64,000 bases of DNA from Desulfobacterales bacterium. GTDB taxonomy: Bacteria > Desulfobacterota > Desulfobacteria > Desulfobacterales > Desulfosalsimonadaceae. Below, piece after piece: positions 2,213 through 25,424 of the stretch (position 1 is the stretch's first letter; each line of letters begins with the position of its first letter). Below the pieces are notes generated by a model. The model was not told the origin of the DNA and ran no database searches. It was given only the letters and a program-made list of their open reading frames with translations. Made by a program: the position numbers and the translations under genes. The stretch is from positions 558,001 to 622,000 of the forward strand of contig JAXHNP010000003.1 of the NCBI GenBank assembly GCA_034520365.1, in the 5' to 3' direction.

Positions 2213-3844
2213 ATGAGTCATGATATCGAAACTCCGGGCGGCAGCGGGCTGCTCGCAAATAAAACCTTCTGGTTAATCGTTGGCATTGCCGTTTTTGTTC
2301 TCGTCGCCTTTGTCCTGCCCACGCCGGACAGCCTGACGCAAATTATCGGAGAGCGCGGCATTGATAAAAAATTAATCGACTGGGGCGTGGCCACAGATCT
2401 TGAAAACGCCGCAGATAAAGCCATGACTGTCTTAGGAATTATTCCTATGGCGGTCATTTTTTTTGCCACTGAAGCCATTCCCATTGGACTCACCGGCATA
2501 TTGATGCCAGTGCTCGCCTACTTCCTTAATTTACTCCCCAAAGGCATGATCGGCAAAACCTTTGCAGGCGATGCCCCGCTTTTTTTGCTGGGGGTCCTGG
2601 CCATGGGCGTCGCCGTGGTGGATGTCGGCCTTCACAGACGCCTGGCCGCCTGGATTCTCGGCTGGACCAAGGGATTTTATACGCCCATCTTCGTTCTCTG
2701 CATCAGCATGGCGGTGATCGGCTCCTTTATCTCCGCCCACGCCATGTGCGCCTTTATGACCCCGGTCATGATGGCGGTCTATTTCGGCGTGGTCCAGTCC
2801 AATAGCCCTTCCGGCGAAATCCAGCATGATCCCAACCTGGCCAAATTTTTACTCTTTACCCTATGCTTTGCTTTAAACGTGGGCGGCGTGGGATCTCCGG
2901 CCGCCGGCGGCCGAAACGTCATCATGATGGGCTACTGGCAGGGCTACAATGTGCCCATGGACTTCTTTACCTGGATGAAGTACGGCTTCCCGCTGGTGCC
3001 GGTCATGGGGCTTCTGGTGGCTGTTTACATGCTGGTGGTATTTTCCCGCAAACTCAAACACAAGGATCTGACCCCGGGTCTGACCGCGATTAAAGACGAA
3101 AACCGCAAGATGGGGAAAATGAAATACGCCGAATATGTCACCTTTGCCATGCTGATCGTCATTCTACTCTTATGGGTTTTCGCCTCAGGCACCCTTGGCC
3201 TCGGCGGACCGGCACTGCTGGCACTATTGATTCCAGTCATTTTTCGAACCACGGACTGGCATAAAATCTTAAACGGCATTTCCTGGGATGCCTGGTTCAT
3301 GTACTGCGGGGCCCTTACCATGGGCGCACTCTTAAAAGAAAGCGGCGCCGCCCTGTGGCTGGCCCAGAGCGTCATGGCCGCTTTAAGCAATCTGGGCATG
3401 AGCCAGGGATTCGGCCTCTGGGTGGGGTTGTCCTCATTTTCCGGTCTGATGACCAACTTTATGTCCGATGCCGGTACCACCGCCCTTTTGGGACCGATCG
3501 TCATTCCCATGGGGATTATGTCCGATGTGGCGGGTGAACCGTGGGCATCCGGCATGGCCGTGGCGTTTGCCACATCCTTTGCCCATTTCCTGATCGTAGG
3601 CACCCCGAATAACGCCATCGTCTACGGGCTGGGCACCTATCCGGATACCGGAGAGCGGGTCATCCAGCCCATCGACTTTGTCAAATATGGATTCGTGCTG
3701 TGGCTCCTCTGTCTGGTGGCCGTCTGGCTCCTGGCATTCCTCGGGACCTTCAACCTGGTCGGTTTTCCCGAAGGCATCCTGGAGACCGCCAGAGGCGTAT
3801 TGCAGAGCGGGGCGGAAATCTCAGAAGTATCCGGCGGACACTAA
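2213..3844 (+). CDS. DASS (SLC13) family sodium/anion symporter
   Basis: A 543-residue polytopic inner-membrane protein of the divalent anion:Na+ symporter family (substrates in the family: C4-dicarboxylates, citrate, sulfate). The family pattern is clear: hairpin-like segments at ~170-185 and ~410-430, and GTPNNAIVYGLG near residue 463. The canonical Ser-Asn-Thr signatures of the two hairpins, as in VcINDY, are not present. The positions read FISAHAM and NFMSDAGTT, so the substrate cannot be assigned by analogy. A ~40-residue loop separates TM1 from TM2. AGGAGAG precedes the ATG. It is in an operon with the receiver at 1733-2182. DASS membership is sure; substrate is unknown. Confidence 0.9.
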   Translation: MSHDIETPGGSGLLANKTFWLIVGIAVFVLVAFVLPTPDSLTQIIGERGIDKKLIDWGVATDLENAADKAMTVLGIIPMAVIFFATEAIPIGLTGILMPVLAYFLNLLPKGMIGKTFAGDAPLFLLGVLAMGVAVVDVGLHRRLAAWILGWTKGFYTPIFVLCISMAVIGSFISAHAMCAFMTPVMMAVYFGVVQSNSPSGEIQHDPNLAKFLLFTLCFALNVGGVGSPAAGGRNVIMMGYWQGYNVPMDFFTWMKYGFPLVPVMGLLVAVYMLVVFSRKLKHKDLTPGLTAIKDENRKMGKMKYAEYVTFAMLIVILLLWVFASGTLGLGGPALLALLIPVIFRTTDWHKILNGISWDAWFMYCGALTMGALLKESGAALWLAQSVMAALSNLGMSQGFGLWVGLSSFSGLMTNFMSDAGTTALLGPIVIPMGIMSDVAGEPWASGMAVAFATSFAHFLIVGTPNNAIVYGLGTYPDTGERVIQPIDFVKYGFVLWLLCLVAVWLLAFLGTFNLVGFPEGILETARGVLQSGAEISEVSGGH

Positions 3845-3868
3845 TTCGAATCAACCATAAACTAATAC

Positions 3869-3915
3869 TTGCCCCGGGTGAGAGCCGACAGTCCCGCCTC
3901 CCCCGGGGCAAACTT
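3869..3915 (+). terminator. strong GC hairpin after the DASS gene
   Basis: The inverted repeat TTGCCCCGGG / CCCCGGGGCAA starts 25 bases after the DASS stop. Only a short T run follows (AAACTTT), so it may be a weak terminator or an mRNA-stabilising hairpin. Confidence 0.5.
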
Positions 3916-3923
3916 TCCTGCCG

Positions 3924-4455: not shown

Positions 4456-5511
4456 TCAATTCTCACATGGCTCCGCTGTCGTCTTGTTCTTTGAATTCCA
4501 GCCCTTCCCATGAATTTTTTCAATGAATTGATCGATATTGATTTGCGGGCCGACAAAAACAAGTGTGTCACCCGCATGAATCAACTCCAAGGAAGAGGGA
4601 TTGTATATCCGGGTGCCATCGGCCCGTTTTATTGCCACAATAATCAGGTCAAATTCGTTGCGGATGTTTGCGTCCATCATTGACTTGCCGACAAAGGTGG
4701 CCGTTTCAGGGATTTCCAGCTCTTCGATGGCCAGTTCGATCTCTTTTCCGGAAATCGTTGAATCCAAAAAATCGGTTATGGTCGGACGGAGGATATTCTG
4801 GGTGATGCGCAGCGCCGCGCTGGCATAGGGCGAAACCACATAATTGGCCCCGGCCCGTAAAAGCTTTTTTTCAACGCCCTTGCTGCTGGCGCGGGCGAAG
4901 ATAGACATATCCGGATTCAGTGCCCGGGCCGTCAAGACGATAAAAACATTATCCGCGTCGCGGTTCACGACTGAAATAAGCCCCTTGGCCCTTTCCACCC
5001 CGGCTTCTTTAAGGCTTTCCTCTTCCATGGCATCCCGCCTGAGATGCGCGACGCCAAGTTCCTTGCACTTAAGAATGGCCCTTTCATCATTATCAATAAC
5101 CACCAGCGGCATACCGCTGGCCAACAGTTCAGCCGTAACGATCTGGCCCACCTGGCCATGGCCGCAAACCACATAATGATCCGTAAAATTTTTCAGCTTT
5201 TTACGCACTTTTCGCCTCCGATAGAGTTCGAGCGTATTGCCATCCAGAAACATATTGCCGAGAAGCGCAGCTGTCGCAGCCACCAATCCGAAACCAAAAA
5301 CGATAAGCACAATGGCGAAAATACGGCCGCCATCGCTTAACTCGAAAGGCGCCACAGTAGTGAGGGTGCCGATGGTCAAATACATGGCTTCAACCGGAGT
5401 CCGCTCTTCCACGAGCATATAGCCGCACATGCCAAACAAAAACAGGCAAACCAGGGAAAACAATAATAGCGCAGCAATCTTATTTCTAGTTGAAAAAAAT
5501 ACGTGTCTCAT
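4456..5511 (-). CDS. two-TM ion channel with RCK (TrkA-N/TrkA-C) domains, unusual filter
   Basis: A 351-residue protein built like MthK-type K+ channels: TM1 (~10-32), a pore loop, TM2 (~60-85), then a TrkA-N Rossmann domain (VVCGHGQVGQ, ~113-235) and a TrkA-C domain (~255-335). RCK domains gate such channels in response to Ca2+ or nucleotides. The pore loop reads TLTTVAPFEL where K+ channels normally carry TVGYGD, so the selectivity filter is not canonical although the rest of the pore region (MYLTIGTLTT, GGRIFAIVLIV) aligns well. It is monocistronic between convergent and divergent neighbours. A 30-base repeat element sits 18 bases upstream of its ATG. The channel fold is confident; K+ selectivity is not. 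Confidence 0.88.
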   Translation of the reverse strand: MRHVFFSTRNKIAALLLFSLVCLFLFGMCGYMLVEERTPVEAMYLTIGTLTTVAPFELSDGGRIFAIVLIVFGFGLVAATAALLGNMFLDGNTLELYRRRKVRKKLKNFTDHYVVCGHGQVGQIVTAELLASGMPLVVIDNDERAILKCKELGVAHLRRDAMEEESLKEAGVERAKGLISVVNRDADNVFIVLTARALNPDMSIFARASSKGVEKKLLRAGANYVVSPYASAALRITQNILRPTITDFLDSTISGKEIELAIEELEIPETATFVGKSMMDANIRNEFDLIIVAIKRADGTRIYNPSSLELIHAGDTLVFVGPQINIDQFIEKIHGKGWNSKNKTTAEPCEN

Positions 5512-6593: not shown

Positions 6594-7520
6594 TCATATA
6601 ATCCAAACCGTATGGTATCTGCCGACTTGCACGACCTTTTGGCAGACCCTTCCCATGGCAAAATCCTGGACTTTGGAGTGCCCGCGCCGGCCCACTGCGA
6701 TGGTGCTGTAATCGCCAAACTCAGCCTCCATAACGATGGCGCCGGAGCGGGAATACGCGCCGGTGACGATTTTTTGTGTGATATTTTCGGATTTCACCCC
6801 GGCGGATAGGAGTTTTTCCCGCAGCCCTTTAAAATGCTCATGCATGTGTTTTTCTGCCATCTCCAGGCTCACCGGTCCCATGTCAAGGTCCGGGTAATCC
6901 GGCATGCTTTTGCCGAATCCCCGGATGACATGGATAAGGCCGACGGCATAATCGTAACTCCCGATTTGCGCGGCCACATAATCCACTGCCTGAGCGGCTG
7001 CCTCAGACCCATCAACGCCGATCAAAATTCTGTTGTTTGGCTCCTTCCGGCCCGCTACCTGGATGGGTAAAAAAATGATTTTTGCAAGCAGTTTTGAGGC
7101 CACGCTCCCCATTGAAAGCCCCTCGAGTTCCGTCATTCCCCGCCGGCGCAGCACGATCGCATCATAATCCTTTTCGGCCTCCTGCAGAATATCCCGGGCC
7201 ACTCCCTGCTCGCGGTCATGAATTTTTACCTCAACGGCTGATTCGTCAAATCCGGCATCGATTAGACGTTTGCGGGCGTGCTTCATATAGGTGTCCATGC
7301 TATACCGTTTTTCTTTTCCCCATGTTTTTAACTCTTCAGAGCCATGAACGTTTGCCGGCTCCTTTCCCAGATCCCGGTAGCTTTCCGGAATACCGCTGAA
7401 AACATGGTAAAGTACAATTTGATTGCCGTGGAACATGAGCATGCGGCTTATATAGTCCACAGTCATTAAGGAACGCTGCGAACCATCCAATAATACGAGC
7501 ACTTTTGGGGGTTTTGCCAT
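6594..7520 (-). CDS. tandem-domain universal stress protein
   Basis: A ~308-residue cytosolic protein with two USP (Usp/UspA) domains: ~1-145 (VLVLLDGSQRSLMTVDY to RRRGMTELEGLSMGS) and ~155-308 (ILIGVDGSEAAAQAVDY to GRRGHSKVQDFAMGR). Both carry the ATP-binding type G-x2-G-x9-G pattern, with Arg replacing Gly in the first and Arg replacing Ser/Thr at the end of the second. The start at 7520 (MAKPPKVLVLLDG) aligns with the paralog at 20745-21671; an ATG two codons earlier is an alternative. It follows a CBM48 protein by 23 bases. USPs bind ATP and support survival under stress; partner unknown. Confidence 0.9.
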   Translation of the reverse strand: MAKPPKVLVLLDGSQRSLMTVDYISRMLMFHGNQIVLYHVFSGIPESYRDLGKEPANVHGSEELKTWGKEKRYSMDTYMKHARKRLIDAGFDESAVEVKIHDREQGVARDILQEAEKDYDAIVLRRRGMTELEGLSMGSVASKLLAKIIFLPIQVAGRKEPNNRILIGVDGSEAAAQAVDYVAAQIGSYDYAVGLIHVIRGFGKSMPDYPDLDMGPVSLEMAEKHMHEHFKGLREKLLSAGVKSENITQKIVTGAYSRSGAIVMEAEFGDYSTIAVGRRGHSKVQDFAMGRVCQKVVQVGRYHTVWII

Positions 7521-7543
7521 CTTCATCCGCTTTTCATTTTTTA

Positions 7544-7819
7544 CTAAACATTTAAAATACAGTTTTCCGTGCCGAATCTGTTTCGGCACTTGTCCGGATT
7601 TTCTGTATCCAGACGCCATTTCCCATCAACCTGAAACTTATATTCATAACAGCCGGGGGCAAGCATCAGGGTTTTTTCCCAAGAGCCGTTTGAGTTTCTG
7701 CGCATGGGATGCTTATCCGCATCCCAATCGTTGAAATCTCCCACCAGACAAACATGCGCGGCATCCTTTGCATTTAATTGAAATTTGACCCGTTTTTTCC
7801 CTTTGTTGTTTTTGGCCAT
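7544..7819 (-). CDS. free-standing CBM48 / AMPK-beta-like glycogen-binding protein
   Basis: A 91-residue protein that is essentially one early-set (isoamylase N-terminal, CBM48) domain. Diagnostic parts are VCLVGDFNDWDADKHPM and GCYEYKFQVDGKWRLD. In larger proteins this domain docks glycogen-branching or debranching enzymes, or AMPK, on alpha-glucans. Here no catalytic domain is attached. AAAGGAGG sits at good spacing before the ATG at 7819. It leads an apparent minus-strand operon with a USP and a TauE-type exporter. A carbohydrate- or adenylate-linked sensory role is inference only. Confidence 0.85.
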   Translation of the reverse strand: MAKNNKGKKRVKFQLNAKDAAHVCLVGDFNDWDADKHPMRRNSNGSWEKTLMLAPGCYEYKFQVDGKWRLDTENPDKCRNRFGTENCILNV

Positions 7820-9279: not shown

Positions 9280-9774
9280 TCAAGTCTTTTCGCCGGCGTC
9301 AATCTCCCTTAACCGCCGCAGGATATCCCGGCTGGAGGTCGTTTGGGAGATCTTTAGGATCTCGTTCATCCGTTTCTCTTCAATCTGATTTTTATTCATC
9401 ACCTTCTGCTTATAGGCGTTCTTCAAAACCTCCAGCAGCTGCTCAAAATCACACGGCTTCTGCAAGTAAGAATACGCCCCGCCCTGGGTGCATTCAACCG
9501 CCGAGTCCACACTGCCATGACCGGTCAGGATGACGATTTCCATCCATTTATGCTCCTTCTTCAAGGCCTTAAGCGTCTCCTCGCCATTCATGCCCGGCAT
9601 TTTCAGATCCACCAGCGCCACATCAAAGGGCGTTTTGCGGGCCGCTTCAATCGCCTGTTCGCCCCGTTCAACGGCCACCACATTAAAATCCCGGGTTTCC
9701 AGGCGTTTTTTCATGGATTCGAGAAACTGACGTTCATCATCCACAAACAACAGATGAATTTTTTTCTTATCCAT
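9280..9774 (-). CDS. stand-alone response regulator receiver
   Basis: A 164-residue receiver with FVDDERQF, VALVDLKMPG, ILTGHG and LQKPCD, so all phosphorylation residues are present. A ~40-residue charged helical tail ends in RRLREIDAGEKT. There is no output domain. AAAGG lies upstream of the ATG. It is the last gene of the minus-strand block that runs from the kinase at 15817 through the DASS gene. About 115 bases separate it from the previous receiver, the widest gap in this part of the block, so it may have its own promoter. Confidence 0.9.
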   Translation of the reverse strand: MDKKKIHLLFVDDERQFLESMKKRLETRDFNVVAVERGEQAIEAARKTPFDVALVDLKMPGMNGEETLKALKKEHKWMEIVILTGHGSVDSAVECTQGGAYSYLQKPCDFEQLLEVLKNAYKQKVMNKNQIEEKRMNEILKISQTTSSRDILRRLREIDAGEKT

Positions 9775-9889: not shown

Positions 9890-10333
9890 CTAATAAACAT
9901 TGCCGCCTTTTCGCAGAAGAGACCGCTGTTCGGCTTTTCGGATCCGTTCCTCCTGCTCCTCTTTTCGCTTCCGCGCCCCCTCAATTTTGGTGGTAATTTC
10001 TTCCACATCCGCCGGTTTCAGCAGGTATTCATAGGCGCCCAGCTTCATGCCTTCGACCGCGGTTTCAATCGTGCCGTGCCCGGTCAGCATGATCACCTCC
10101 ACGATGGGATAGCGTTTCTTGATTTCCTGAAGCGTCTCTATGCCGTCCATTCCGGGCATCTTGATATCCAGAACCACCACGTCGATATATTCTTTTGCCA
10201 GGAGGTCCAGGCTTTCTTTTCCGCTGTAGGCTCTGTGGACGCGCTCTCCGGCTTCCTCCAGCCGCAGGCCGAACATCTCCACAAAATCTTTTTCATCGTC
10301 TACGATCAGGACGTTGGTCGGAATTTTGATCAT
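9890..10333 (-). CDS. stand-alone response regulator receiver
   Basis: A 147-residue receiver with LIVDDEKDF, VVLDIKMPG, MLTGHG and LLKPAD, so it should be active. A basic helical tail (KRKEEQEERIRKAEQR) follows. Its ATG overlaps the TGA of the upstream receiver-kinase gene (ATGA-type overlap), implying tight translational coupling. This makes it the likely partner of that kinase. Confidence 0.92.
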   Translation of the reverse strand: MIKIPTNVLIVDDEKDFVEMFGLRLEEAGERVHRAYSGKESLDLLAKEYIDVVVLDIKMPGMDGIETLQEIKKRYPIVEVIMLTGHGTIETAVEGMKLGAYEYLLKPADVEEITTKIEGARKRKEEQEERIRKAEQRSLLRKGGNVY

Positions 10334-11568: not shown

Positions 11569-13140
11569 CTACACCAGCCCCAGAATGTTCCACCAAATCA
11601 TCGCCATAATGACGAGTATCGTGAGAAGTACCGGCATTACCACCACGCCGAGCTTGGTCAGATCCACGGATTTGAAATACCGATAGCTGTAGGCAATGGC
11701 ATTGGGCGGGCATCCGATAACCAGGAGCATGGCAAAAGAACAGGCCATACCGAGGCATAAGGCAAGTACTGTCGGATCCACGCCCTCCATTTGGGCCATG
11801 GGAATAACAATCGGCAGAATCAGCGCCGCTGCCGCCACATTCGCCATGGCATTGGTCACAATGGCACCGAATATGCCGACCCCGATAAACAGGCCCAGCC
11901 ATCCGGTCCCCTGAACCACCGGGAAAAACAGGTTGGCAAAATACTCGCCCGCCCCTGAATAGCCCATGGCAAGACCAAGCGATATGCCGCCGCCGAAAAT
12001 AAACAGCGCGGTTCCCCATTCCAGGTTGTCATTGATATCCTCCCATTTAAGACAGCCGGTCACCGTGAGCACGGCAACCCCCAGCATACCAGTAATCGAG
12101 TAATGGATCCCGTGAACGCCCTTGGTCAACCAGGTCAGAAAGGTCAGGCCGACAATGATCAGGGTGACAATTTCCGTTCGGGTAAGCGGCCCCAGTTCCT
12201 CGTCCAGCTCCGGAAGCCTGAGGTTCGGGTCCGGCCGATAGACCAGGTAGACCATAAAAACAGCCGCCGGCACCGTTACCAGGGCCATAGGCATGGCATA
12301 CATGATCCACTCAAAAAAAGTAATCTCAAGTCCGGTAAATTCTTTTAAAAATGCCGCAGCCACCATGTTTCTGCCCCCGCCGACCAGGGTCCCCATCCCG
12401 CCGGCTGAGCAGGCAAACGGAAGCGAGAGCATCATGAACTTGGCGGTTTTTGTGTGGGGCTCAATGCCGGCGGCTCGCATCATGGGCAGCATAGTGACAA
12501 GGCCCACCGCACAGGCGGCGGCATCGTGCATAAACCCGGAGGCCCAGCCAAGGCCGATTGAAATGATAAAGGTAAAGCGGGTCACGCTGGTGCCAGCCTT
12601 ACGAATGATAAAATAGCCCAATCGTTTGGTAAGGCCTGAGCGATCCAGGGCAATGGCAAATATCAGGCAGCACATGATAAACAGCACCACCGGGTGCATA
12701 TAGGGCGCCCAGGCCCCCTCCACACCGCTCACCCCCATGACCACAAGCCCCACCCCGATCAGGATGGCCGTAATTTCCAGTGGAATGGGCTCTACCACAA
12801 ACATAAAGATCAAAAACACCAGCAGGGCCAGAAAACGCTTTGCCTTGGGGGACAGGCCGTCCACATAATCAACGGATACATCCGCTAATCCGGCTGCTGC
12901 AATCTGCTCTTTCAGGTAAATACCATTTGCATCTGCCGCGCCCGGCTGCTTGCTTTTGAGCACATATCCGCCTCTTTTCGCGGGTTGGAGTTCAAAACTG
13001 TCGCTTACCTGCGCATACAACTTTTGTCCGGCATCTCCGGTGATTTTATATTGCGTCCCTTCCGGCCGGGGGATAAGAAAGACAATCACCCCGAGCAGTA
13101 TCCCGATGCCCAGCTTAAACAGATTGGATTTAAAAAACAT
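11569..13140 (-). CDS. DASS (SLC13) family sodium/anion symporter, second paralog
   Basis: A ~523-residue polytopic membrane protein. TM1 is followed by a ~75-residue hydrophilic, presumably extracytoplasmic loop (positions ~25-100), then the DASS core ending in GCPPNAIAYSY. The two hairpin signatures read GFMHDAAACA and TNAMANVAAAA instead of Ser-Asn-Thr. AAGGAG precedes ATG 13140; the GTG three codons earlier overlaps that site and is less likely. It is 12 bases after a receiver gene and directly before a receiver-kinase gene, so transport and signalling are in one operon. Substrate is unknown; the context suggests the kinase cascade regulates, or is regulated by, the transporter. Confidence 0.9.
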   Translation of the reverse strand: MFFKSNLFKLGIGILLGVIVFLIPRPEGTQYKITGDAGQKLYAQVSDSFELQPAKRGGYVLKSKQPGAADANGIYLKEQIAAAGLADVSVDYVDGLSPKAKRFLALLVFLIFMFVVEPIPLEITAILIGVGLVVMGVSGVEGAWAPYMHPVVLFIMCCLIFAIALDRSGLTKRLGYFIIRKAGTSVTRFTFIISIGLGWASGFMHDAAACAVGLVTMLPMMRAAGIEPHTKTAKFMMLSLPFACSAGGMGTLVGGGRNMVAAAFLKEFTGLEITFFEWIMYAMPMALVTVPAAVFMVYLVYRPDPNLRLPELDEELGPLTRTEIVTLIIVGLTFLTWLTKGVHGIHYSITGMLGVAVLTVTGCLKWEDINDNLEWGTALFIFGGGISLGLAMGYSGAGEYFANLFFPVVQGTGWLGLFIGVGIFGAIVTNAMANVAAAALILPIVIPMAQMEGVDPTVLALCLGMACSFAMLLVIGCPPNAIAYSYRYFKSVDLTKLGVVVMPVLLTILVIMAMIWWNILGLV

Positions 13141-14122: not shown

Positions 14123-15817
14123 CTATTTCTGGACCGGCAGCCAAATCCGAAACCGGGTCCCTTCGCCCACAGTACTGTGCACATCGATTTTTCCGCCCAT
14201 CTTCTGAACAATCCCGTAGCAAATCGAAAGACCTAAGCCCGTACCGCGCCCGACCGGCTTGGTGGTAAAAAAGGGTTCAAATATCCGATCCAGGTTGGAT
14301 TCGGGAATCCCCGGTCCGTCATCCTCCACAATGATAACAATATGATCCTTTTCCAAACGGCTTAATTTGGTAATAATTTTGATGGTACCGCCGCTCTTGC
14401 CCATGGCATCCATCGCATTATTAATGAGGTTTAAAAGCACCTGCTGCATTTCTGAGGGCGAAATCGTAATATAGGGCAGATCCGGCTGCAGCCCGGTTTT
14501 TATAGCCACCTTGTTATATCTGGCCATCTGCTCGGAGAGCCCCACGATTTCCTGGATCAGTTGATTGACCTGTACATCCTTTAATGTGGTATCGGTTTTT
14601 CTGGCAAAGCTTAACAGCTTGTGGGTAATCTCTTTACAGCGCTGCCCCTGAGTATTTATCTGTTTGAGCGCGCGTTTGAACTCTTTTAAATTTTCACTCT
14701 CCTGAAACTCCTCATCCTCCAGCAGATCCTCAATCCAGCCGGCCTCTTCCACCATAATCGCCACCGGATTATTGATTTCATGGGCAATTCCCGCTGCCAG
14801 TTCCCCCAAAGATGCCATTTTTCCGGTTTCAATGATCTGCTTGTTCATCATCTCCGTCTCTTCATCCGCCCGGCGGATCCTCCGCACCATCTGCTTTGAA
14901 GTAACAAAGGCCATGCCGATAATTCCCCCGCCGCCTAACAAAAAAATGAGCAGGGCGATATTGGACATCCGGCTAAGATCGGAAAATGCGTCAGCCACAC
15001 TTTGTTTGACGATCAGCAGCCATTCCCCGTTTTTGAGGCTGCCCACGGCATACAGGCTCTCTTCGCCGCTGTCCGTGGTCCACCGGGTAATCAAAATATT
15101 GTTCTGTGTCTTTTCCACCGCCTCCCAGAAAAAGGAATAGCATCCGCTGCAGGGGTCAATGTCCTTTTTGGGCGAAGCCTGAAATTCTCCTTTTCGGTTG
15201 AGAATAAACGCAAATCCGGTCTGCCCGACCCGAAAATTTTGGACCAGCGAATTAAATGCGTTAAAGTTTACGGTTGCCCGCATCAGCCAGAATCCGCCGT
15301 TATGCTCAATTCGGGTGGCAACGATAAAATGCGGGAATCCGCGGAGGCCTGAAAAGACATCACTGATAAAATGCGGCTCGGAAATCGCCTTTTCAAACCA
15401 TTCCGCCTTATGGTAATCGGCCGCCTCCAGCTCATAAGGGCCGGCATATGCCCGCTGGATGCCGTTTTCATCAACCAGCCCAAGATCGACGAACACATTC
15501 TCATAGTCCCGTCTCAGTTCAATAAGGAGATCGTATAGAAAATCATTGTCTTTGAGCGCTGAAAACTTTTGGCTGGATGCCAGAAACTCAATTGTTGACA
15601 GCCTCTCTTTTAAAAAGGAGTCGATATTCTGCTTATGTTTTTGAACCAATTCGGTTAGATGCGCATGGGTTTTCGCATGATATGACGCAGAGAACTGCTG
15701 CAGCAGAATGGCAATGACAAGCACCATGGGGGTAAAGGATACAATGATAACGGTGAAAATCATTTTCCGCGTGAGCAACCGATAATAATGCCTGCGATCC
15801 CCTTTTTGTTTGGCCAT
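14123..15817 (-). CDS. membrane sensor histidine kinase with double-Cache domain
   Basis: A 564-residue kinase. TM1 (~18-40) and TM2 (~282-303) enclose a ~240-residue periplasmic region of dCache type ([32 protein letters not shown]), which in related kinases (DctB-like) binds small carboxylates. A CSGC motif near residue 233 is unusual for this domain and could bind metal or sense redox. The cytoplasmic part has HisKA ([17 protein letters not shown]) and HATPase ([26 protein letters not shown]). It heads a minus-strand operon with two receivers, a DASS transporter and a receiver-kinase. The ligand is plausibly the transporter substrate. Confidence 0.92.
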
Positions 15818-18016: not shown

Positions 18017-20728
18017 TCAGGCAACCGAGTGCAATTGATCCAATTCTGTCGCATCCTGTCCATCAGCAAAATTATAGCTCAATTCAAACGCACTGCTGTT
18101 ATGCACCAATTTCCGGGAAAAACCGAGTTTTTTACCCAAAGCGAGCATGTTGGTATTATCAGACAGCACAAGCCCCCATACCCGCTCAATATTACGCATG
18201 CGAGCAATTTTCAAACACCGCTTCATCAACTCCGCGCCTATGCCCTTGCCATGCCACTCATCACCTACTAGCACGGCAAATTCAGCATTTTTTTGATCGT
18301 ATTCGATAATCACCCTCCCGACACCAAGCATCTGTTCACTGCCCATGCTATTTAGAATGGCAACAAGCGCTATTTCCCGATCATAGTCAATCTGAGTAAA
18401 CCGGGCGAGCATGTTTTGCGGCAGCTTTTTCATGGGGCTAAAAAACCTATAGTAAATACTTTGCTTGGACAGTTTCTCAAAAAGTTCTGTCAGTAGGGAG
18501 GCATCCTCGGGGCGAATGGGCCTTATCAGCAAACGCCCCACATCCATGATTTCCACGTAGGATTCATATTGGTCGGGATACGGGCTGATAACCAAGTGCA
18601 GAGGAGCGGCAACTGTCTCTGGCTCGACAATTATTCGGGCATCTACCGCAACCGCGAATCTGTCGGTTATGATGAGCGGATTAATATCTATTTCAGAAAT
18701 CTGGGAAAAATCCGTCACCAGTTGCGACAGTCGGATCAGTATCTCCTCAATCTGCATGATATTTGCGCCCGGATAGTTTCGATAACCTTTCAAAACCCTG
18801 AAAATTTTTGTCTCTTCCATCATCCGACGGGCAAGCAGACGATTCAAAGGCGGTAAAGCCAATGCCCGATCCTGGATAATCTCGGTAAATATGCCGCCGG
18901 TGCCAAAGAGCAACACGGGTCCGAAATCCCGGTCCTTTTTCACCCCCAGGATCAGCTCATAATCCGGGCGGTTCAGCATGGGCTGGATGGTGACGCCTTC
19001 AATTTTAGCATCACGCTGATACAGCCGTACACTTTCCGTAACCTTTGAAAAGGCCTGTCTGATACCTGCCGGACTGCCTACGTTTAAGACAACACCGCCG
19101 GAATCCGTTTTGTGTGTCACATCCGGCGAATAGATCTTCACCGCTACCGGATATCCCATTTCTTCAGCCAACATTACCGCGATTTCTTCATCCTTGGCGA
19201 CTTCAGTCTCATTAACTGGAATCCCATAGCAGTTTAGAAGCTTTTTGGAATCAATTTCAGTCAAACACCCTTTGGTTTGCGCCAAAGCGCAGGAGATAAT
19301 TTCCTCAGCCGCCTTCCGTTCAAACGTCAGGCGATTCTGAAGTTTGGGGGGAACTTCCTGCAGCATTTCCCTGTTTCTGGCGTATCGGTAAAGATCCATA
19401 AATGCCCTTACCGCCCTTTCCGGTGTATCAAATGTGCTAATCCCCGCCCGGTTGAAAATCTCGCGACCGGCCGCTACTCCAGCACCGCCCATCCATACCG
19501 TAAAAACCGGGAAGTTTTTATCTTGAAGAAAATCCGAAAGGGCGCTTGCAACCTCTGAAGGATCGGCAACCGCTTGCGGCGAGAACATAATCAATAACCC
19601 GTCAACTCCTTTTGCCTTCATCAGCGTTTTCACGACCATTTGATACCGTTCAGGCGTTGCATCGCCTAAAATATCTACAGGATTGGAGCGGCTCCAATAA
19701 TACGGCAGCAGCTTATCAAGTTGCTCGATGGTTTCCCTTGCGAGTGCCGTCGGTTCTGCATGATGATCAGCCAGCGCATCAGCCGCCATTACACCAGGAC
19801 CGCCAGCGTTTGTAACAATAGCGAGGCCGGGACCTTCTGGTAGAGGTTGTTTGGCCAAAAATTCAGCACAATCAAAAAGTTCTTCAAATGTCTTGACTCG
19901 AACGATGCCGGCCCGTCTAAATGCAGCATCATATACCGCATCAGCGCTGGCAAGCGCCCCTGTATGGGAGGCAGCCGCTTTGGCACCGGCATGGCTTCGA
20001 CCAGCTTTGAGGGCAATAATCGGTTTGATCCGCGAAACGGCCCGCGCAGCGCTCATAAAATTTCTTATATGGGTGAGATTTTCAATATAGAGTACGATGC
20101 TGCTGACTTCCGGGTCAGCACCCACAAAATCAATCATATCCCCGAAATCAACATCCAGCATGGAGCCGAGACTAACGAAATAGCTAAACCCCATATTCTC
20201 CTTTATTGAAAAATCAAGAATTGACGTGCAGATGGCGCCGCTTTGGGAAATAAATGCCATTTTCCCAGTAGCCGGCATCCGGCTGGCAAATGTGGCGTTC
20301 AACTGCGACTGAGTGGAGACAACGCCGAGGCAATTTGGCCCGATAATCCGAAGATTATTTTTTGAAGCCTGCAGAATTTCTTTTTCTAAAATCACACCCG
20401 CTTTTCCAATCTCTTTACCGCCGGCTGAAATGACAACAGCGCCCCCTACCCCCGCCTTACTACATTCCGAAATTATTTTAGGTGCGTATCGGATGGGTGT
20501 GGCGATAATTGCCAGGTCTATGACCTTCTGAATTTTCTTAATGGTCGAAAAACACGTCAAATTGAAGACTTCGGGATGAAACGGGTTTACTGGATAAATT
20601 TCACCTTTAAACCCGCCGCCAATTAAGTTTCGCATAAGGGCTGTTCCCAAGCTGCCCGTCTTTTCACTGGCGCCGATGACCGCAACAGATTTGGGACGAA
20701 ACATTCTTTCCAAATTAAGTATTGCCAT
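18017..20728 (-). CDS. ADP-forming acyl-CoA synthetase fused to GNAT acetyltransferase (Pat-like)
   Basis: A 903-residue fusion: CoA-binding domain ~1-135 (VAVIGASEKTGSLG), succinyl-CoA-ligase-like domain ~150-455, ATP-grasp ~485-705 and a C-terminal GNAT domain ~735-890 (VLVGDEWHGKGIGAELM, acetyl-CoA loop). The architecture is that of the protein lysine acetyltransferases Pat/YfiQ, which acetylate and silence acyl-CoA synthetases. Unlike enterobacterial Pat, the catalytic His of the ADP-forming synthetases seems retained (SHTGALASAD, His255), so it might still be an active ligase. It is co-directional with, and 16 bases after, a tandem USP gene; the pair has a sigma-54 promoter. Several acyl-CoA synthetases in the window are possible targets. 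Confidence 0.9.
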   Translation of the reverse strand: MAILNLERMFRPKSVAVIGASEKTGSLGTALMRNLIGGGFKGEIYPVNPFHPEVFNLTCFSTIKKIQKVIDLAIIATPIRYAPKIISECSKAGVGGAVVISAGGKEIGKAGVILEKEILQASKNNLRIIGPNCLGVVSTQSQLNATFASRMPATGKMAFISQSGAICTSILDFSIKENMGFSYFVSLGSMLDVDFGDMIDFVGADPEVSSIVLYIENLTHIRNFMSAARAVSRIKPIIALKAGRSHAGAKAAASHTGALASADAVYDAAFRRAGIVRVKTFEELFDCAEFLAKQPLPEGPGLAIVTNAGGPGVMAADALADHHAEPTALARETIEQLDKLLPYYWSRSNPVDILGDATPERYQMVVKTLMKAKGVDGLLIMFSPQAVADPSEVASALSDFLQDKNFPVFTVWMGGAGVAAGREIFNRAGISTFDTPERAVRAFMDLYRYARNREMLQEVPPKLQNRLTFERKAAEEIISCALAQTKGCLTEIDSKKLLNCYGIPVNETEVAKDEEIAVMLAEEMGYPVAVKIYSPDVTHKTDSGGVVLNVGSPAGIRQAFSKVTESVRLYQRDAKIEGVTIQPMLNRPDYELILGVKKDRDFGPVLLFGTGGIFTEIIQDRALALPPLNRLLARRMMEETKIFRVLKGYRNYPGANIMQIEEILIRLSQLVTDFSQISEIDINPLIITDRFAVAVDARIIVEPETVAAPLHLVISPYPDQYESYVEIMDVGRLLIRPIRPEDASLLTELFEKLSKQSIYYRFFSPMKKLPQNMLARFTQIDYDREIALVAILNSMGSEQMLGVGRVIIEYDQKNAEFAVLVGDEWHGKGIGAELMKRCLKIARMRNIERVWGLVLSDNTNMLALGKKLGFSRKLVHNSSAFELSYNFADGQDATELDQLHSVA

Positions 20729-20744
20729 AAATCACCGATGGTTC

Positions 20745-21671
20745 TTATACAATCCAAACCGTGTGATACCTGCCCACTTGCACGACTTTCTGGCAGACCC
20801 TGCCCATGAAAAATTCACGCACTTTAGAAAGCCCTCTTCGACCGACAACGATAGTGCTGTAATTTCCGCATTCAGCTTCCATAACGATTGCTCCGGCGCG
20901 TGAATAGGCCCCGGTAATAATTTTCTCGCTTATGCTCTCCGGCTTAAAGCCGCTGGAGAGCAGCTTTTCTCGTAGTTCCTTAAAATGGCTCTGCATATTC
21001 GCTTCAGCTGTCTCAACATTTTTTACCGGCATTTCAAACTCTGAATTTTCCGGCATGATGCTGCCAACCCCCCGGATCACATGAAGCAGCATTACGCAGC
21101 AATCGTATTTGCCAAGATTTTCTGCGACAAAATCCACGGCCTTTGCTGCAGCGGTTGAACCATCTACGCCTATTAGTATCCTGTTCGTCTGCTCCTTGCG
21201 TCCCGCCACCTGAATGGGCAGAAATGTCAATTTTGATAAAAGCTTCGTGGCAACGCTGCCCATTGATATGCCTTCCAGCTGCCCCATCCCCCGCCGGCGA
21301 AGTACAACCGTGCGATAACCGGCTTGCGCCTCATTTAAAATATCCCGGGCAATCCCTTTTTCACGGTCGTGAATCTTGACCTCAATTGCGGCGTTCGGAA
21401 AACCGCCATTGACTAAACGGCTCCGGGCGGTTGACATGTATTCTTCAATCTTCTCCTTTTTATGTTTTTCCCAGGCCCGAAGCTCATGATAGGCATGAAC
21501 ACTTGAAGGCTCTTTCTCCAGGTCCCAATAACACTCTGGAATGCCGCTAAAAACCGTGTAAAGAACAACCTTCATGGATTGAAACATCTGCATGCCGGCA
21601 ATATAGTCAACTGTCATCAATGAGCGTTGTGATCCGTCCAATAAAACAAGCGCATTTTTTTGAGTCGGCAT
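20745..21671 (-). CDS. tandem-domain universal stress protein, second paralog
   Basis: A 308-residue protein with two USP domains: ~1-145 (ALVLLDGSQRSLMTVDY, RRRGMGQLEGISMGS) and ~155-308 (ILIGVDGSTAAAKAVDF, GRRGLSKVREFFMGR). It is a close paralog of the protein at 6594-7520, down to the shared end RVCQKVVQVGRYHTVWI. GGAGGAAG precedes ATG 21671; the seven residues further upstream would hide that site. It heads an operon with the Pat-like gene under a sigma-54 promoter. Binding of ATP or acetyl-CoA-linked signals is inference. Confidence 0.92.
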   Translation of the reverse strand: MPTQKNALVLLDGSQRSLMTVDYIAGMQMFQSMKVVLYTVFSGIPECYWDLEKEPSSVHAYHELRAWEKHKKEKIEEYMSTARSRLVNGGFPNAAIEVKIHDREKGIARDILNEAQAGYRTVVLRRRGMGQLEGISMGSVATKLLSKLTFLPIQVAGRKEQTNRILIGVDGSTAAAKAVDFVAENLGKYDCCVMLLHVIRGVGSIMPENSEFEMPVKNVETAEANMQSHFKELREKLLSSGFKPESISEKIITGAYSRAGAIVMEAECGNYSTIVVGRRGLSKVREFFMGRVCQKVVQVGRYHTVWIV

Positions 21672-21719
21672 TTTTCTTCCTCCTGCAGTCATGAGTTAAA
21701 TCCTTTGATGACTATAAAG

Positions 21720-21889: not shown

Positions 21890-22804
21890 CTAAGCATTGC
21901 TGCGTCCGTTCAGCACCTTCTCCATTTCAAAGAACAAGTCCTGCTCCCGGATGACACCGACCACACCGCCCCCCTGCCTGACCACCAGCCGGCGCACCTG
22001 GTATCTGACCATCATGTAGGTCGCCTCCATCAAAGAGGCGGTGGAATCAATGGCATACGGCGCCGGTGACATCACATCATAAATTTTTTTATCCGCGCTC
22101 CGCCGGACCTCAGTGGAAAACATTCCATTCCAGAACATGGGAGAATACTGGATGCTGTCTGCCAGGCTGGGCTTGGGGGCAGACAAGTAGGCCGGCATGA
22201 TCATTTTCAAAAGGTCCAGGATTGCCACCACGCCCTTTACACGCTTTTGCGCATCCACCACCAGCACAGATCGATGCCCGGTTTCCATGATCCGGGACGT
22301 GCTCACTTTGGAGGCAAACGATTTTTTCAACGCCTGGATGGCGTCCTTTACCGAAGTGTCTCCTGACAGGGTAGTGTATTCATGGATCGGCACCATGACT
22401 TCCAGTACGGTATGCTCCCGGTATTCCCGGGGCGGGGTTCCACGGTTATACGCATCCTTTATCTTTCCGGTGAGTACATCGATGTCGCAGGGCTTGGAAA
22501 GATAATCAAACGCCCCTTCCCCATAAGCATCCCGGGCGGATGGAAGATCGCCGTGGCCGGTCAGCATGATCACCGGCAGATCCGGTTTCTGCTTTTTGAT
22601 CTCCCGCAGGGTCTCGTGACCATCCATTCCTTCCATTTTAATATCCAGGATCACCACATCCGGATCTTCCTTTAATTTTTCGATGGCCGTTGCCCCGCTT
22701 TCCGCCATGATGGTCTCAAAACCCCGGCGCGTTAGAATCTTATTGGTGGTGGCCCGGAACTGCTCCTCATCGTCAACCATCAAAACCTTTATTTTATCCG
22801 TCAT
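21890..22804 (-). CDS. receiver-CBS pair fusion protein
   Basis: A 304-residue protein: receiver ~1-122 (VLMVDDEEQF, VVILDIKMEG, MLTGHG, LSKPCD) followed by a CBS pair ~135-300 (VLEVMVPIHEYTTL to GVVGVIREQDLFFEM). The combination would join phosphorylation input to adenine-nucleotide sensing. The acceptor motif has Glu in place of the usual Pro. AAGGAG precedes the ATG. It is the last gene of the receiver-kinase-DASS-Yip1 operon. The CBS half resembles the free CBS protein at 1111-1674. What it controls is not evident, since there is no DNA-binding part. Confidence 0.9.
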   Translation of the reverse strand: MTDKIKVLMVDDEEQFRATTNKILTRRGFETIMAESGATAIEKLKEDPDVVILDIKMEGMDGHETLREIKKQKPDLPVIMLTGHGDLPSARDAYGEGAFDYLSKPCDIDVLTGKIKDAYNRGTPPREYREHTVLEVMVPIHEYTTLSGDTSVKDAIQALKKSFASKVSTSRIMETGHRSVLVVDAQKRVKGVVAILDLLKMIMPAYLSAPKPSLADSIQYSPMFWNGMFSTEVRRSADKKIYDVMSPAPYAIDSTASLMEATYMMVRYQVRRLVVRQGGGVVGVIREQDLFFEMEKVLNGRSNA

Positions 22805-22850
22805 GATTTCATCTCCTTATCGTAAATATGGCGCCTTGATTGGGTTCTCA

Positions 22851-23372
22851 TCAAGTAATTACCGGAAGCATGGCCCAGAAAACCAAAACCATTATACCTA
22901 TTGAAAGCGCGACAACGCTCCACGCCTGCCTTGAGCTCAACCCGCAGGCGCGGGAAAGCCCGGTTCCGATCAGCCACCATTTCCAGAGCTCGGTCAGCCA
23001 AAGAGCCATGGGTATCCAGGCCGCAAGAAAAACCGTGCCCGCGGCATAGGCATACACCGACAACACCTGCACGAAAGAAAACCGCCGGCCCGCTATTAAC
23101 ACCACCAACGCATACCCCAAGCCTGCTGAAATGATCGTCATACCCAGCGCATTGGTGAACAGGATCGAGGTCATCACCATGGGATTCGGGAACTGATACA
23201 CCAGGTGAGCCGCGAATGCGAGAAACAGGCTGGACACCACCAGAAATATAAGCGGGGTTCTAACGTGTACAGTTTTGGACAGTTCGGTAAAAAACTTGCC
23301 GGGCTCAGCCATTACCCGTGTCGCAATCTGAAAATAGGCGGTTACCGAAAATTCCGGAATTGCCTGCGCCAT
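22851..23372 (-). CDS. Yip1-family membrane protein
   Basis: A 173-residue protein with a short N-terminal segment typical of Yip1 proteins (FQIATRVMAEPGKFFTEL) and five hydrophobic segments from ~35 to 172. I chose ATG 23372 (MAQAIPEF) with GAGGGAG upstream. The function of bacterial Yip1-domain proteins is poorly known. It lies between a 49-residue membrane protein and the receiver-CBS gene in the third DASS operon, so it may be an accessory of that transporter or kinase. Confidence 0.75.
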   Translation of the reverse strand: MAQAIPEFSVTAYFQIATRVMAEPGKFFTELSKTVHVRTPLIFLVVSSLFLAFAAHLVYQFPNPMVMTSILFTNALGMTIISAGLGYALVVLIAGRRFSFVQVLSVYAYAAGTVFLAAWIPMALWLTELWKWWLIGTGLSRACGLSSRQAWSVVALSIGIMVLVFWAMLPVIT

Positions 23373-23383
23373 GACATACTCCC

Positions 23384-23533
23384 TCAAAATATCCCCAGTT
23401 TATATAGAATGCCGGCACCCAGCATGAAAAGGGTCAGGACAAAAAACACCTTTCGTTCCATTCGCCGGGTGAAATATATCCGGCCCCTGTCATAATGAAT
23501 CGGTTTTTTGGCTTCTTCTAATGCGCGAAACAT
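23384..23533 (-). CDS. 49-residue single-pass membrane protein
   Basis: Short ORF: N-terminal charged part (MFRALEEAKKPIHYDRGRIY), a basic stretch (TRRMERK), then one transmembrane helix (VFFVLTLFMLGAGILYKLGIF). AAAAGGAG sits six bases before the ATG. The stop is 11 bases ahead of the Yip1 start, whose ribosome-binding site lies at the junction. It is 37 bases after the DASS gene. This close packing argues it is real. It could be a small regulatory or structural subunit of the transporter; I recognise no family. Confidence 0.7.
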   Translation of the reverse strand: MFRALEEAKKPIHYDRGRIYFTRRMERKVFFVLTLFMLGAGILYKLGIF

Positions 23534-23570
23534 GGAAAACTCCTTTTATTGAGTCATTGACAAGCCACTC

Positions 23571-25424
23571 CTAAAATCCGGCCAGATTGCCGAATCCCCG
23601 AAGGCTCCAGTAAACAGCCGTCATGAGAAGCAGCATAATGTTGGCGCAAACCCATACGGGTATGCCCACCCGCAGGTAATCCTTGGGCTCCAGATAGCCG
23701 GATGCATACACAATGGCGTTCGGCGGAGTGCCGATAATCAGGCAGTATGCCATAGACGAGGCCACGGCGGTTGACATGGCCATAAAGGGCAGATATGTGG
23801 TACCCGGATGCACCAATCCGGCCAAATTCAAGGCAATCGGTCCGACGGCGGCGGCAGCCGGCCCGTCTGCCATAAGGTTAGTCAGAATGGCGGTCAGGCC
23901 GTTAGATACGGCCATCAGCGGCAGCCCTGAATTAATCCCCAAAGGCCCGATAAAATCGATGACTGAGCGCGCCAGCCAATAGGCGGCGCCGGTTTCATCC
24001 AGGACCCGGCCGAAGATAATGGCCCCGGCATACAGCCAGACCACCCCCCAATCGACCTTTTCCTGATAATCCCGCCAATTGACAACGCCGGCCATGATAT
24101 AGGCGACGGCCCCGGCCACGGCAATGGTACCGATGCCCAGCCGGATGGGATAAATCCCCATTTGATAAAAGGCTTTCTCTGTGAACCAGCCGAAAATCAT
24201 AACCAGAAAGATAATGATGGCCACAATCTGATACCGGTTCCATCCGCCCATGCGATCAATTTCAGAGCGCAGATGCTTCATGGCCGGGGCCAGGGAAAAA
24301 ATCTGCGGCTTAAACCGCCAGTTTACCGTAAACCAGACGATAGGGATCATGATCACCACAAAGGGGAAACAGTAGGTGACCCACTGAAGGTAGCCGATAT
24401 CAAAGCCGAACATGTCGTTTAGATAGGTCATCATGATAACATTTCGGGCGCCGCCGGATGGCGCACCCGGCCCGCCGATATTGCAGGCCATGGCAATGGC
24501 GATCATCAACAGCTTGGCAAGCTCCGGATCCTCACGGGTCTCCGGGGTCAGGCTGTTTTCATAGAGCAGAATGCCGATGGGCAGAAACATGGCGGCCAGG
24601 GCATGGTCGGAGATAAAGGCGGCCAGCGGGCTGATAATGATAAAAAATATCAGGGTGATCCATTTGACATTGGGCCTGGCCAGTTTCCTAAACATGATCA
24701 GGCACATTCGCTTATCCACCCCGGTTTTGACAAATGCAGCGGCAAACATGAGGCTACCCATGATAAACCAGCAGGCATCGTCCCAGTAAAGCATGGCCAG
24801 GTTCTTCTTTGTGACCACGCCGGTGAAAACAAGAATCAGGCCGATGCAGAAAGCCACCCCCGGCAGCGGAATGCATTCGGTAAAAAAGCAGATGATCACA
24901 AAAACGGCCATGGCAATGGAGACCTTGATATGCCAGGCCGCCTCATCCGCTTTTTTCTTCTCTTCAGGCGTCAGGTTCTCGTATTTGAGCTTCTCTTTGC
25001 GCAGATCCAGGGCTGACTGCATGAGGGAGGTAAACTTGTCCTTGGAGAGCTGATTTTCAACAAAGATTTTCGCCTCCTCAAAATTTTGGGCATCCACCGG
25101 GATGTTGTATTTTTTGCACCACCCCATGTCCCGTTCCATAAAGCGGTTTTTGGAAAGCGCCCCCATCTGCATGTTCTGCTCCATCATCTGTGCAGTCAAG
25201 AGCTGCCACTGATTCACTTCACTGCTTTTTTGCTGAAACAATGACTGGGTAATATAGTTGACCACTGCTTTGGGGCCGATGCGGTATTCCGTACCCACAT
25301 CCTTCATCCCATAGGGCGTTGGCAGCATTAATATCAGGAAGAAAAGCACCACTGGTATGATAAATATCTTCCAATCCACATACTTGTCATAGCCGGTTAC
25401 CTTCTGTTTTTTCTCTCTGGCCAT
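23571..25424 (-). CDS. DASS (SLC13) family symporter with long extracytoplasmic insert
   Basis: A 617-residue transporter, longer than the usual ~470-540. TM1 (~14-33) is followed by a ~110-residue mostly helical hydrophilic insert (to ~145), then the DASS core ending with GTPPNAIVYASGYLEP. Hairpin signatures are FISDHALAAMFLP and TNLMADGPAAAAVGP, again not Ser-Asn-Thr. AAAGGAG precedes the ATG. It lies 71 bases after the dCache kinase and upstream of small membrane proteins. The insert is the most distinctive part and could contact the periplasmic domain of the kinase (inference). Family is sure, substrate unknown. Confidence 0.9.
   Translation of the reverse strand: MAREKKQKVTGYDKYVDWKIFIIPVVLFFLILMLPTPYGMKDVGTEYRIGPKAVVNYITQSLFQQKSSEVNQWQLLTAQMMEQNMQMGALSKNRFMERDMGWCKKYNIPVDAQNFEEAKIFVENQLSKDKFTSLMQSALDLRKEKLKYENLTPEEKKKADEAAWHIKVSIAMAVFVIICFFTECIPLPGVAFCIGLILVFTGVVTKKNLAMLYWDDACWFIMGSLMFAAAFVKTGVDKRMCLIMFRKLARPNVKWITLIFFIIISPLAAFISDHALAAMFLPIGILLYENSLTPETREDPELAKLLMIAIAMACNIGGPGAPSGGARNVIMMTYLNDMFGFDIGYLQWVTYCFPFVVIMIPIVWFTVNWRFKPQIFSLAPAMKHLRSEIDRMGGWNRYQIVAIIIFLVMIFGWFTEKAFYQMGIYPIRLGIGTIAVAGAVAYIMAGVVNWRDYQEKVDWGVVWLYAGAIIFGRVLDETGAAYWLARSVIDFIGPLGINSGLPLMAVSNGLTAILTNLMADGPAAAAVGPIALNLAGLVHPGTTYLPFMAMSTAVASSMAYCLIIGTPPNAIVYASGYLEPKDYLRVGIPVWVCANIMLLLMTAVYWSLRGFGNLAGF

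Follow-up and report, generated by a model that had tools for sequence, protein, structure and literature searches.

Which anion is carried by transporters of the DASS family that have lost the Ser-Asn-Thr (SNT) signatures of their binding site, and how might its charge be accommodated? This question is raised by a stretch of 64,000 nucleotides from a Desulfobacterales bacterium (GenBank assembly GCA_034520365.1, contig JAXHNP010000003.1, positions 558,001 to 622,000; called the window in the following), which encodes three DASS (SLC13) paralogs, P1 (positions 2213–3844, forward strand, 543 amino acids), P2 (11569–13149, reverse strand, 526 amino acids) and P3 (23571–25424, reverse strand, 617 amino acids). 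A preliminary description of this DNA had suggested that the altered signatures, together with neighboring receiver genes, mark a subfamily with another substrate or a sensory role. The analysis presented here, which is based on sequence comparison, structure prediction, gene context and published expression data, suggests that P1, P2 and P3 probably are importers of sulfate, i.e., of an inorganic dianion, with the elevator fold of the DASS family and a functionally altered N-terminal half-site. The exact role of an arginine found in this half-site is hypothesized with less confidence than the substrate and the alteration as such. Sulfate respiration begins with the uptake of sulfate, and the signature described below would predict a different scheme of charge compensation, giving a testable clue to how sulfate-breathing bacteria take in their sulfate.

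The N-terminal half of the binding site

All three proteins exceed the cut-off of the Pfam family PF00939 (27 bits), with 105.6 bits for P1, 181.5 bits for P2 and 165.6 bits for P3. For TIGR00785 (cut-off 198.6 bits), P2 (237.6 bits) and P3 (222 bits) are found above and P1 (154.2 bits) below the cut-off. It was stated in the preliminary description that both hairpin signatures are altered in all three paralogs, and the alignment to VcINDY bears this out. At the two SNT positions, the tips of the first hairpin (HP1 or HPin; VcINDY S150, N151 and T152) and of the second hairpin (HP2 or HPout) read SAH and SDA in P1 (2732–2740 and 3464–3472, forward strand), HDA and ANV in P2 (12520–12528 and 11836–11844, reverse strand) and SDH and ADG in P3 (24603–24611 and 23862–23870, reverse strand). 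The string SNT is absent throughout P1, P2 and P3 in a whole-protein string search and the alignment shows a replacement in place, ruling out that the motif is hidden elsewhere in these proteins, so that the claim survives this check as well. The loop of the second half, L10, is largely kept, reading ATPPN in VcINDY, GTPNN in P1 (3599–3613, forward strand), GCPPN in P2 (11701–11715, reverse strand) and GTPPN in P3 (23718–23732, reverse strand), and the C-terminal GTPxNAI block was rightly described as kept or slightly changed.

The larger change was overlooked in this earlier reasoning, which is incomplete in this respect. The loop of the first half, L5, reads GSPPN in VcINDY and AGGRN in P1 (2903–2917, forward strand), GGGRN in P2 (12367–12381, reverse strand) and GGARN in P3 (24441–24455, reverse strand), i.e., an arginine replaces the second proline (Arg234 in P1, at VcINDY P202; Arg260 in P2; Arg327 in P3). 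Judged from the alignment, the entire N-terminal half-site composed of HPin and L5 is rewritten in P1–P3. For human NaS1 (SLC13A1) it was shown that sulfate is held by Ser139 and Thr141 of HPin and by Thr259 and Ser260 of L5, and that a single sodium ion is bound at Asn140 and by backbone carbonyls including that of Gly258 (PMC10980263). Since NaS1 holds sulfate by HPin and L5, the N-terminal changes of P1–P3 hit the sulfate-binding half. Where NaS1 has Ser-Asn-Thr in HPin and Thr-Ser in L5, the branch of P1–P3 has aspartate, glutamate or alanine with histidine, and arginine; the HPin triplet always contains the histidine and usually an acid. The HPin sequences read SAHAMC in P1, HDAAAC in P2 and SDHALA in P3, and none of them shows SNT followed by arginine. 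This is unlike CitT (SNTART), in which the SNT of HPin is kept with the arginine next to it (SNTAR), whereas P1–P3 have lost SNT and carry the arginine in L5.

Conservation of the arginine and the histidine

The conservation of these residues was followed in 119 distinct DASS proteins, translated from open reading frames of at least 250 amino acids that match P1–P3 at 1e-15 or better; the set is a subset of all search matches, taken from the listed loci only and with identical rows dropped. P1 orthologs carry SAH/AGGRN/SDA/GTPNN (HPin, L5, HP2 and L10) in 9/10 proteins, the tenth being a fragment, and SDA alone in all ten. P1-like proteins show SEH/AGGRN/SDG/GTPNN in 7/7, P2 orthologs HDA/GGGR[NC]/ANV/GCPPN in 9/9 and P3 orthologs SDH/G[GA]ARN/ADG/GTPPN in 39/40 proteins; the fortieth is cut short, and SDH alone is present in all 40, which were gathered without use of the peptide pattern SDHALAAM. 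Two related branches share the L5 arginine, namely an SEH-type branch (19/19; SEH, PEH or PMH with GG[AG]R) and an AHT-type branch (13/13; AHT with G[AS]AR and MNV), and it is absent from the remaining 21 of the 119 proteins. Of the 119 proteins, 97 have both the L5 arginine and a histidine among the three HPin residues, both are missing in 22 (these 21 and the P1 fragment), and there is no protein with only one of them. Moreover, all members of another alignment, which comprises 65 P1-, P2- and P3-type and related proteins, have the arginine, and the hairpin tips and L10 are constant within each type.

Loss of the motif by decay is ruled out by tips that are identical across orthologs and by reading frames that are open. 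The idea that the L5 arginine generally pairs with an acid in HPin to form a salt bridge was dropped, as the P1 orthologs (with alanine) and the AHT-type branch (with histidine) have no acid in HPin. No description of the arginine signature or of the SNT change in DASS proteins was found in the open-licence literature searched. What is new here is the Arg-His signature, its one-sided placing in the tree and the related branch linked to assimilation; the gene cluster and the clade are already known.

Phylogeny of the arginine branch

A tree of 70 proteins was calculated with IQ-TREE from 459 alignment columns, with the motif columns excluded and without a root being inferred. VcINDY and 15 SNT-type proteins form a branch at 100/97, and P1–P3 are placed outside of it in the arginine-type branch (94/85, not starred), in which the P types come together at 94/49 and P1 groups with P3 at 100/99. 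The homologs from Desulfobacterium autotrophicum are found with their counterparts, i.e., P3 with HRM2_38270 (100/97), P1 and the P1-like proteins with HRM2_38230 (100/99) and P2 with HRM2_38300 (99/98, long branch). CitT groups with four odd proteins (L005, L006, L023 and L030) at 99/96 apart from P1–P3; the program issued a long-branch warning there, CitT and HRM2_38300 being among the sequences flagged. On this tree the arginine needs two changes, one of them being HRM2_38230, and the distribution therefore fits a single origin of the L5 arginine. In a FastTree analysis of 120 proteins with the motif columns included, the arginine proteins are split from the other DASS proteins at 0.924 and the P types come together at 0.992. 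Within the sampled genomes, arginine in L5 with histidine in HPin separates a sulfate-linked branch from the SNT-type DASS.

Link to sulfate respiration and sulfate assimilation

A single draw from the phylum, comprising 296 genomes, was searched with P1, P2, P3 and dsrA, and P types were assigned by identity (P1 at least 71%, P1-like 38–42%, P2 at least 63%, P3 at least 52%). P types were found in 25/296 genomes from 11 families, and dsrA is present in 25/25 of these vs. 147/296 genomes overall (hypergeometric probability 8e-9, uncorrected for kinship). The genome of the window contains dsrA as well and therefore likely belongs to a sulfate reducer. A sat gene was sought in the window without success; the two sat matches of this genome are located on different contigs. 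A fourth PF00939 gene is located on another contig; its motifs differ from those of P1–P3, and its neighbors, read from their translations, look like fumarase/tartrate dehydratase-like subunits.

Published expression data can be connected with the arginine branch by a genome matching D. autotrophicum HRM2. Its DASS genes are found in the order P1-like, receiver, kinase, receiver-CBS, P3, Yip1, receiver-CBS and P2-like, and this order and spacing fit HRM2_38230, HRM2_38270 and HRM2_38300 with three and two genes in between, the locus tags being assigned from the order. A PF00939 search of this genome gave seven matches, five of them strong, and the two other strong matches fit by position HRM2_07790 (SNT-type) and HRM2_40290 (AHT-type). 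The window thus resembles the group Cii DASS HRM2_38230/38270/38300 (PMC5840216), as the three types and their order agree. On the basis of their expression, two group Cii proteins were described as sulfate transporters of high affinity; the residue analysis of this group covers NaS1 positions 258–288, and in the parts of the text covered the arginine and the loss of SNT are unmentioned (PMC5840216). HRM2_38230 and HRM2_38300 are reported to be highly expressed below 100 µM sulfate, HRM2_40290 is high at 15 mM sulfate, and HRM2_07790 shows no change with sulfate (PMC5840216, citing Tarpgaard 2017). In these reports a response to sulfate is found for 3/4 arginine-branch genes, and neither for the SNT-type gene nor for the P3 ortholog.

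The related branches differ in their genomic context. dsrA is found in 0/19 genomes with SEH-type and in 13/13 genomes with AHT-type proteins. At least one of cysC, cysH and sat is present in the fetched stretch of 16/19 SEH-type loci vs. 1/18 loci with other DASS genes (Fisher 1e-6), these 18 control loci being hand-picked from match lists and unmatched for taxonomy or stretch length; the three genes occur in 0/8 AHT-type loci examined (8 of 13). As an example, locus L251 belongs to a genome that lacks dsrA; its SEH-type DASS gene is flanked by genes for a radical-SAM protein and a universal stress protein (Usp), followed by cysC, cysH and sat, and upstream are cysM, a JAMM gene (desampylase-like, under the cut-off) and a moeB-like gene. 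The row of genes (L251:4502–13841) reads cysM – JAMM – MoeB/ThiF – radical SAM – DASS – Usp – cysC – cysH – sat and partly recurs in the SEH-type loci L252–L253 and L258–L273. Homologs of both moeB and the radical-SAM gene are present in 11/19 SEH-type loci and a Usp homolog in 13/19. This row is reminiscent of a pathway that makes cysteine by way of a sulfur carrier and has a dedicated importer of sulfate.

Gene context and published expression together make it likely that the three paralogs and the arginine branch are sulfate-linked. The suggestion of a subfamily with another substrate gains support from this context, i.e., from a branch separate from the SNT-type proteins and VcINDY, from dsrA in all 25 genomes with P types, from two matching D. 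autotrophicum genes that are reported to be sulfate-regulated and from a related branch beside assimilation genes.

Fold and inserts

AlphaFold2 (AF2) models were calculated for P1 (predicted local distance difference test, pLDDT, 87.6; predicted template modeling score, pTM, 0.86) and P3 (pLDDT 86.7; pTM 0.84). Helix breaks are found at the motif positions of both, as predicted for DASS hairpins and loops, and the models place P1 and P3 in the elevator fold, which comprises two hairpins and two broken helices. Human NaS1, with its sulfate site in HPin and L5, is the first Protein Data Bank (PDB) match for both models. For P3, NaS1 was found with E 2.5e-18 and VcINDY is close (TMt 0.80); for P1, NaS1 was found with Z 38.2 and 3.0 A over 462 residues, tied with NaCT at 37.7.

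The preliminary description had also noticed hydrophilic inserts of different size between transmembrane helices TM1 and TM2, and they are indeed present with approximately 28, 70 and 119 amino acids. In P1 (2315–2398, forward strand) the AF2 model has helices at residues 17–34 and 63–86 with a short helix at 39–48 between them. The insert of P2 is located at 12862–13071 (reverse strand, limits approximate), and that of P3 (24969–25325, reverse strand) is predicted to be helical with good confidence (AF2 blocks 88–96). It is less conserved than the core, with a mean column homozygosity of 0.56 vs. 0.82 in 36 orthologs. A known domain in the inserts of P2 and P3 was rejected, as neither gave a Pfam match at 0.1 and a comparison of that of P3 with PDB sequences at E 1 found nothing. 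Based on the topology of VcINDY, the insert of P3 is presumably on the periplasmic side.

Proposed mechanism and the role of the arginine

DASS-C proteins neutralize their dianion with sodium ions at Na1 and Na2, and for LaINDY, which belongs to DASS-E, Arg159 and His392 were proposed as sodium surrogates (PMC7553777). The arginine following SNT in CitT may be equated with Arg159 of LaINDY. P1–P3 would resemble LaINDY and CitT in having a positive side chain that stands in for sodium, as was proposed for LaINDY (PMC7553777). With VcINDY (DASS-C) they share the fold, the hairpin layout and the loop of the second half; unlike VcINDY they lack both SNT and the first GSPPN loop, which forms Na1, and they belong to a separate branch. 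In yeast Pho90 a hairpin histidine serves phosphate (PMC13381914), and in P1–P3 a histidine at the hairpin tip might likewise assist an inorganic oxyanion. In Pho90, however, the histidine is on HP2, whereas the branch of P1–P3 has the histidine on HP1 and the arginine on L5. Furthermore, an aspartate beside the hairpin asparagine of ArsB is a candidate for proton coupling (PMC13381914), and Drosophila INDY is proton-coupled (PMC11782487).

It is proposed that the sulfate dianion is bound by the L5 arginine together with the HPin histidine, that these two residues provide a fixed positive charge at the place where Na1 sits in DASS-C, and that the acid at the former asparagine position, in HPin, HPout or both, might bind a cation or a proton. 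The different sites of the three paralogs might serve different sulfate ranges or differ in coupling. A more far-reaching proposal, made tentatively and with clear reservation, is that the arginine-loop DASS constitute a third mechanistic class beside DASS-C and DASS-E, in which an arginine tethered on L5, instead of sodium or an arginine in HPin, provides the positive charge of site 1 together with the HPin histidine, acid and histidine of the hairpins make uptake proton-coupled or dependent on fewer sodium ions, and activity in sulfate reducers is set post-translationally by receiver-only regulators. Such a class would serve assimilatory and dissimilatory sulfate uptake alike, and P1–P3 and the simpler assimilation-linked homologs are candidates for testing it.

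Several observations weigh against the interpretation of P1–P3 as sulfate importers in which the rewritten half-site has this function. The HRM2_38230 homolog (L236:11962–13572, reverse strand; outside of the counts of 97 and 119) has tryptophan (TGG) in place of the L5 arginine, and its HPin acid is changed to glycine (GGC) and the serine of HP2 is lost, the HPin histidine being kept. This gene without the L5 arginine is one of those reported as induced at low sulfate, and the P3 ortholog HRM2_38270 shows no change of expression with sulfate (PMC5840216, citing Tarpgaard 2017). In addition, 14/97 arginine proteins (13 AHT-type and one with PMH) have no acid in either triplet. HRM2_07790, which is of the SNT type, clades with a characterized sulfate transporter of R. 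capsulatus (PMC5840216), and NaS1 carries sulfate with SNT; the arginine is therefore not necessary for sulfate transport. The ranking of folds does not discriminate, since NaCT ties with NaS1 for P1, and for this reason it was not used as evidence for the substrate. Finally, the comparison of the SEH-type loci is made with the unmatched controls mentioned above.

Part of these observations leads to an alternative that appears doubtful but deserves to be taken seriously, namely that P1–P3 transport sulfate with an arginine that is structural, e.g., by packing L5, and with sodium coupling as in NaS1, i.e., the same substrate by another mechanism. The largely kept L10, the retention of Asn203 in P1, P3 and 4/9 P2 orthologs, and the induction of HRM2_38230 despite the loss of its arginine (PMC5840216) would suit such a role. 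However, a structural arginine is at odds with the joint occurrence of arginine and HPin histidine in 97/119 proteins, with no case of separation, and with the location of the pair in the half-site that in NaS1 contains both sulfate and Na1 (PMC10980263).

The gene cluster and its regulators

The locus of the window represents a kind of cluster already known from sulfate reducers, in which DASS genes occur with two-component and CBS genes. For Desulfosarcina variabilis, a cluster of 30.5 kb was described that combines DASS sulfate transporters with two-component systems and CBS proteins and has related clusters in 26 species, and two DASS proteins of such a cluster are reported to be abundantly and constitutively formed (PMC11887813). 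As in Dvar_38230–Dvar_38430 of D. variabilis 3be13, the three kinds of genes are united in one cluster of about 30 kb. Residues of the binding site are not discussed in the parts of this text that were covered.

The claim that the three DASS genes are tied to receivers is confirmed by the gene order. A receiver-only response regulator is located 30 bp before P1 (1733–2182, forward strand) and another one 3 bp before P2 (13153–13590, reverse strand), and P3 is preceded by a histidine kinase (25496–27298, reverse strand; weak dCache match, 36.7 bits vs. a cut-off of 45) and a receiver (27295–27681, reverse strand) and followed by genes for a Yip1-domain membrane protein (22851–23387, reverse strand) and a receiver-CBS protein (21890–22804, reverse strand). 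Further stand-alone receivers are encoded at 464–985 (forward strand), at 9280–9774, 9890–10333 and 13646–14080 (all reverse strand) and, in degenerate form at the window edge, at 28–501, and in the domain scan none of the eight shows an output domain over the cut-off. Moreover, the cluster comprises a CBS-domain protein (1111–1674, forward strand), which has a homolog near the P1 ortholog in 7/7 genomes examined (L238–L244), a receiver-HisKA-HATPase protein directly after P2 (10330–11568, reverse strand), a dCache histidine kinase (14123–15817, reverse strand) and an NtrC-type sigma-54 activator (27933–29390, reverse strand). The receivers at 1733, 9890 and 13646 and some of their relatives have a common charged C-terminal tail rich in lysine and glutamate (EE+I+KA-like), which may be a docking element.

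The recurrence of these genes was assessed in 80 named P3 loci of 3–22 kb each, the best 80 of 189, by BLAST to the proteins of the window; the loci were found with peptide patterns including SDHALAAM and are therefore not independent for SDH. Homologs are present in 75/80 loci for the receiver-CBS protein and in 73/80 for the Yip1-domain protein. Homologs of response regulators occur in 78/80 and of a dCache-type kinase in 72/80 loci, these labels being promiscuous. P1-labelled DASS proteins were found in 21/80 loci (one at 68% identity, the others at 34–42%) and P2-labelled ones in 10/80 (eight at 65–76%, two at only 30–34%). In the AHT-type loci L254, L255, L274–L277, L296 and L297, receiver, kinase, NtrC or CBS homologs are present in 8/8. 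Homologs of the window's receivers or kinases occur in 5/19 SEH-type loci, with none in 14/19, and kinase or NtrC homologs also in 5/18 control loci, so that receiver or kinase neighbors alone are weak evidence.

The proposed mechanism includes these regulators. Kinases with cache domains would respond to a signal from outside, plausibly sulfate, by phosphorylating the receiver-only regulators; the latter would work through contact with other proteins, possibly the transporters, and the CBS proteins might add an energy or metabolite signal. The published model assumes regulators of the WalR type acting on promoters (PMC11887813), unlike the receivers of the window with their lack of output domains. 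Among the proteins scanned, the NtrC-type protein alone is clearly a DNA-binding regulator, so that receivers working through contact with other proteins, perhaps the transporters, are an alternative to be considered.

Other substrates and a sensory role

An unlikely alternative is that P1–P3 carry a related sulfur anion such as sulfite, thiosulfate or a sulfonate, or that they are exporters, instead of being importers of sulfate. Sulfate reducers handle several sulfur anions, and a gene of the TauE/SafE family is present in the cluster and in 5/80 P3 loci. Against this reading, sat, cysC and cysH beside the SEH-type branch point to sulfate, and the reported upregulation of two D. autotrophicum relatives under sulfate limitation (PMC5840216) suits import.

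A sensory function of P1–P3 is possible and not needed to explain the data. In its strict form, which we consider improbable to a greater degree, one or more paralogs would be transceptors, in which sulfate binding chiefly serves signaling to the neighboring kinases and receivers and little sulfate is transported. Such transceptors would agree with the receivers close to P1 and P2, with the regulator and kinase homologs in most P3 loci and with three divergent copies in one cluster that carry extra domains after TM1. However, the hairpin tips and L10 are constant within each type, as in carriers, the SEH-type branch is found beside assimilation genes, where uptake is needed, mostly without homologs of the window's receivers or kinases, and abundant, constitutive formation was reported for two DASS proteins of such a cluster (PMC11887813). 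Very improbable, finally, is the view that P1–P3 are conventional DASS carriers of dicarboxylates, coupled to sodium, whose motif has drifted neutrally. The DASS fold of P1 and P3 and the largely kept loop of the second half would allow this, and it is contradicted by altered tips that orthologs from several families share, by the position of P1–P3 outside the VcINDY branch and by dsrA in 25/25 sampled genomes holding P types.

Other genes of the cluster

The cluster also encodes a fusion of CoA-binding, ATP-grasp and GNAT domains, i.e., an acyl-CoA synthetase-like part with an acetyltransferase (18017–20728, reverse strand), with homologs in 12/80 P3 loci. It may be guessed that protein acetylation is linked to sulfate uptake. 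There are two similar universal stress proteins, one with two Usp stretches in the domain scan at 6594–7619 and one recognized by likeness at 20745–21692 (reverse strand), and a Usp gene also directly follows the SEH-type DASS gene of L251. A potassium-channel-like protein with TrkA-N and TrkA-C domains (4456–5511, reverse strand) adjoins the DASS cluster.

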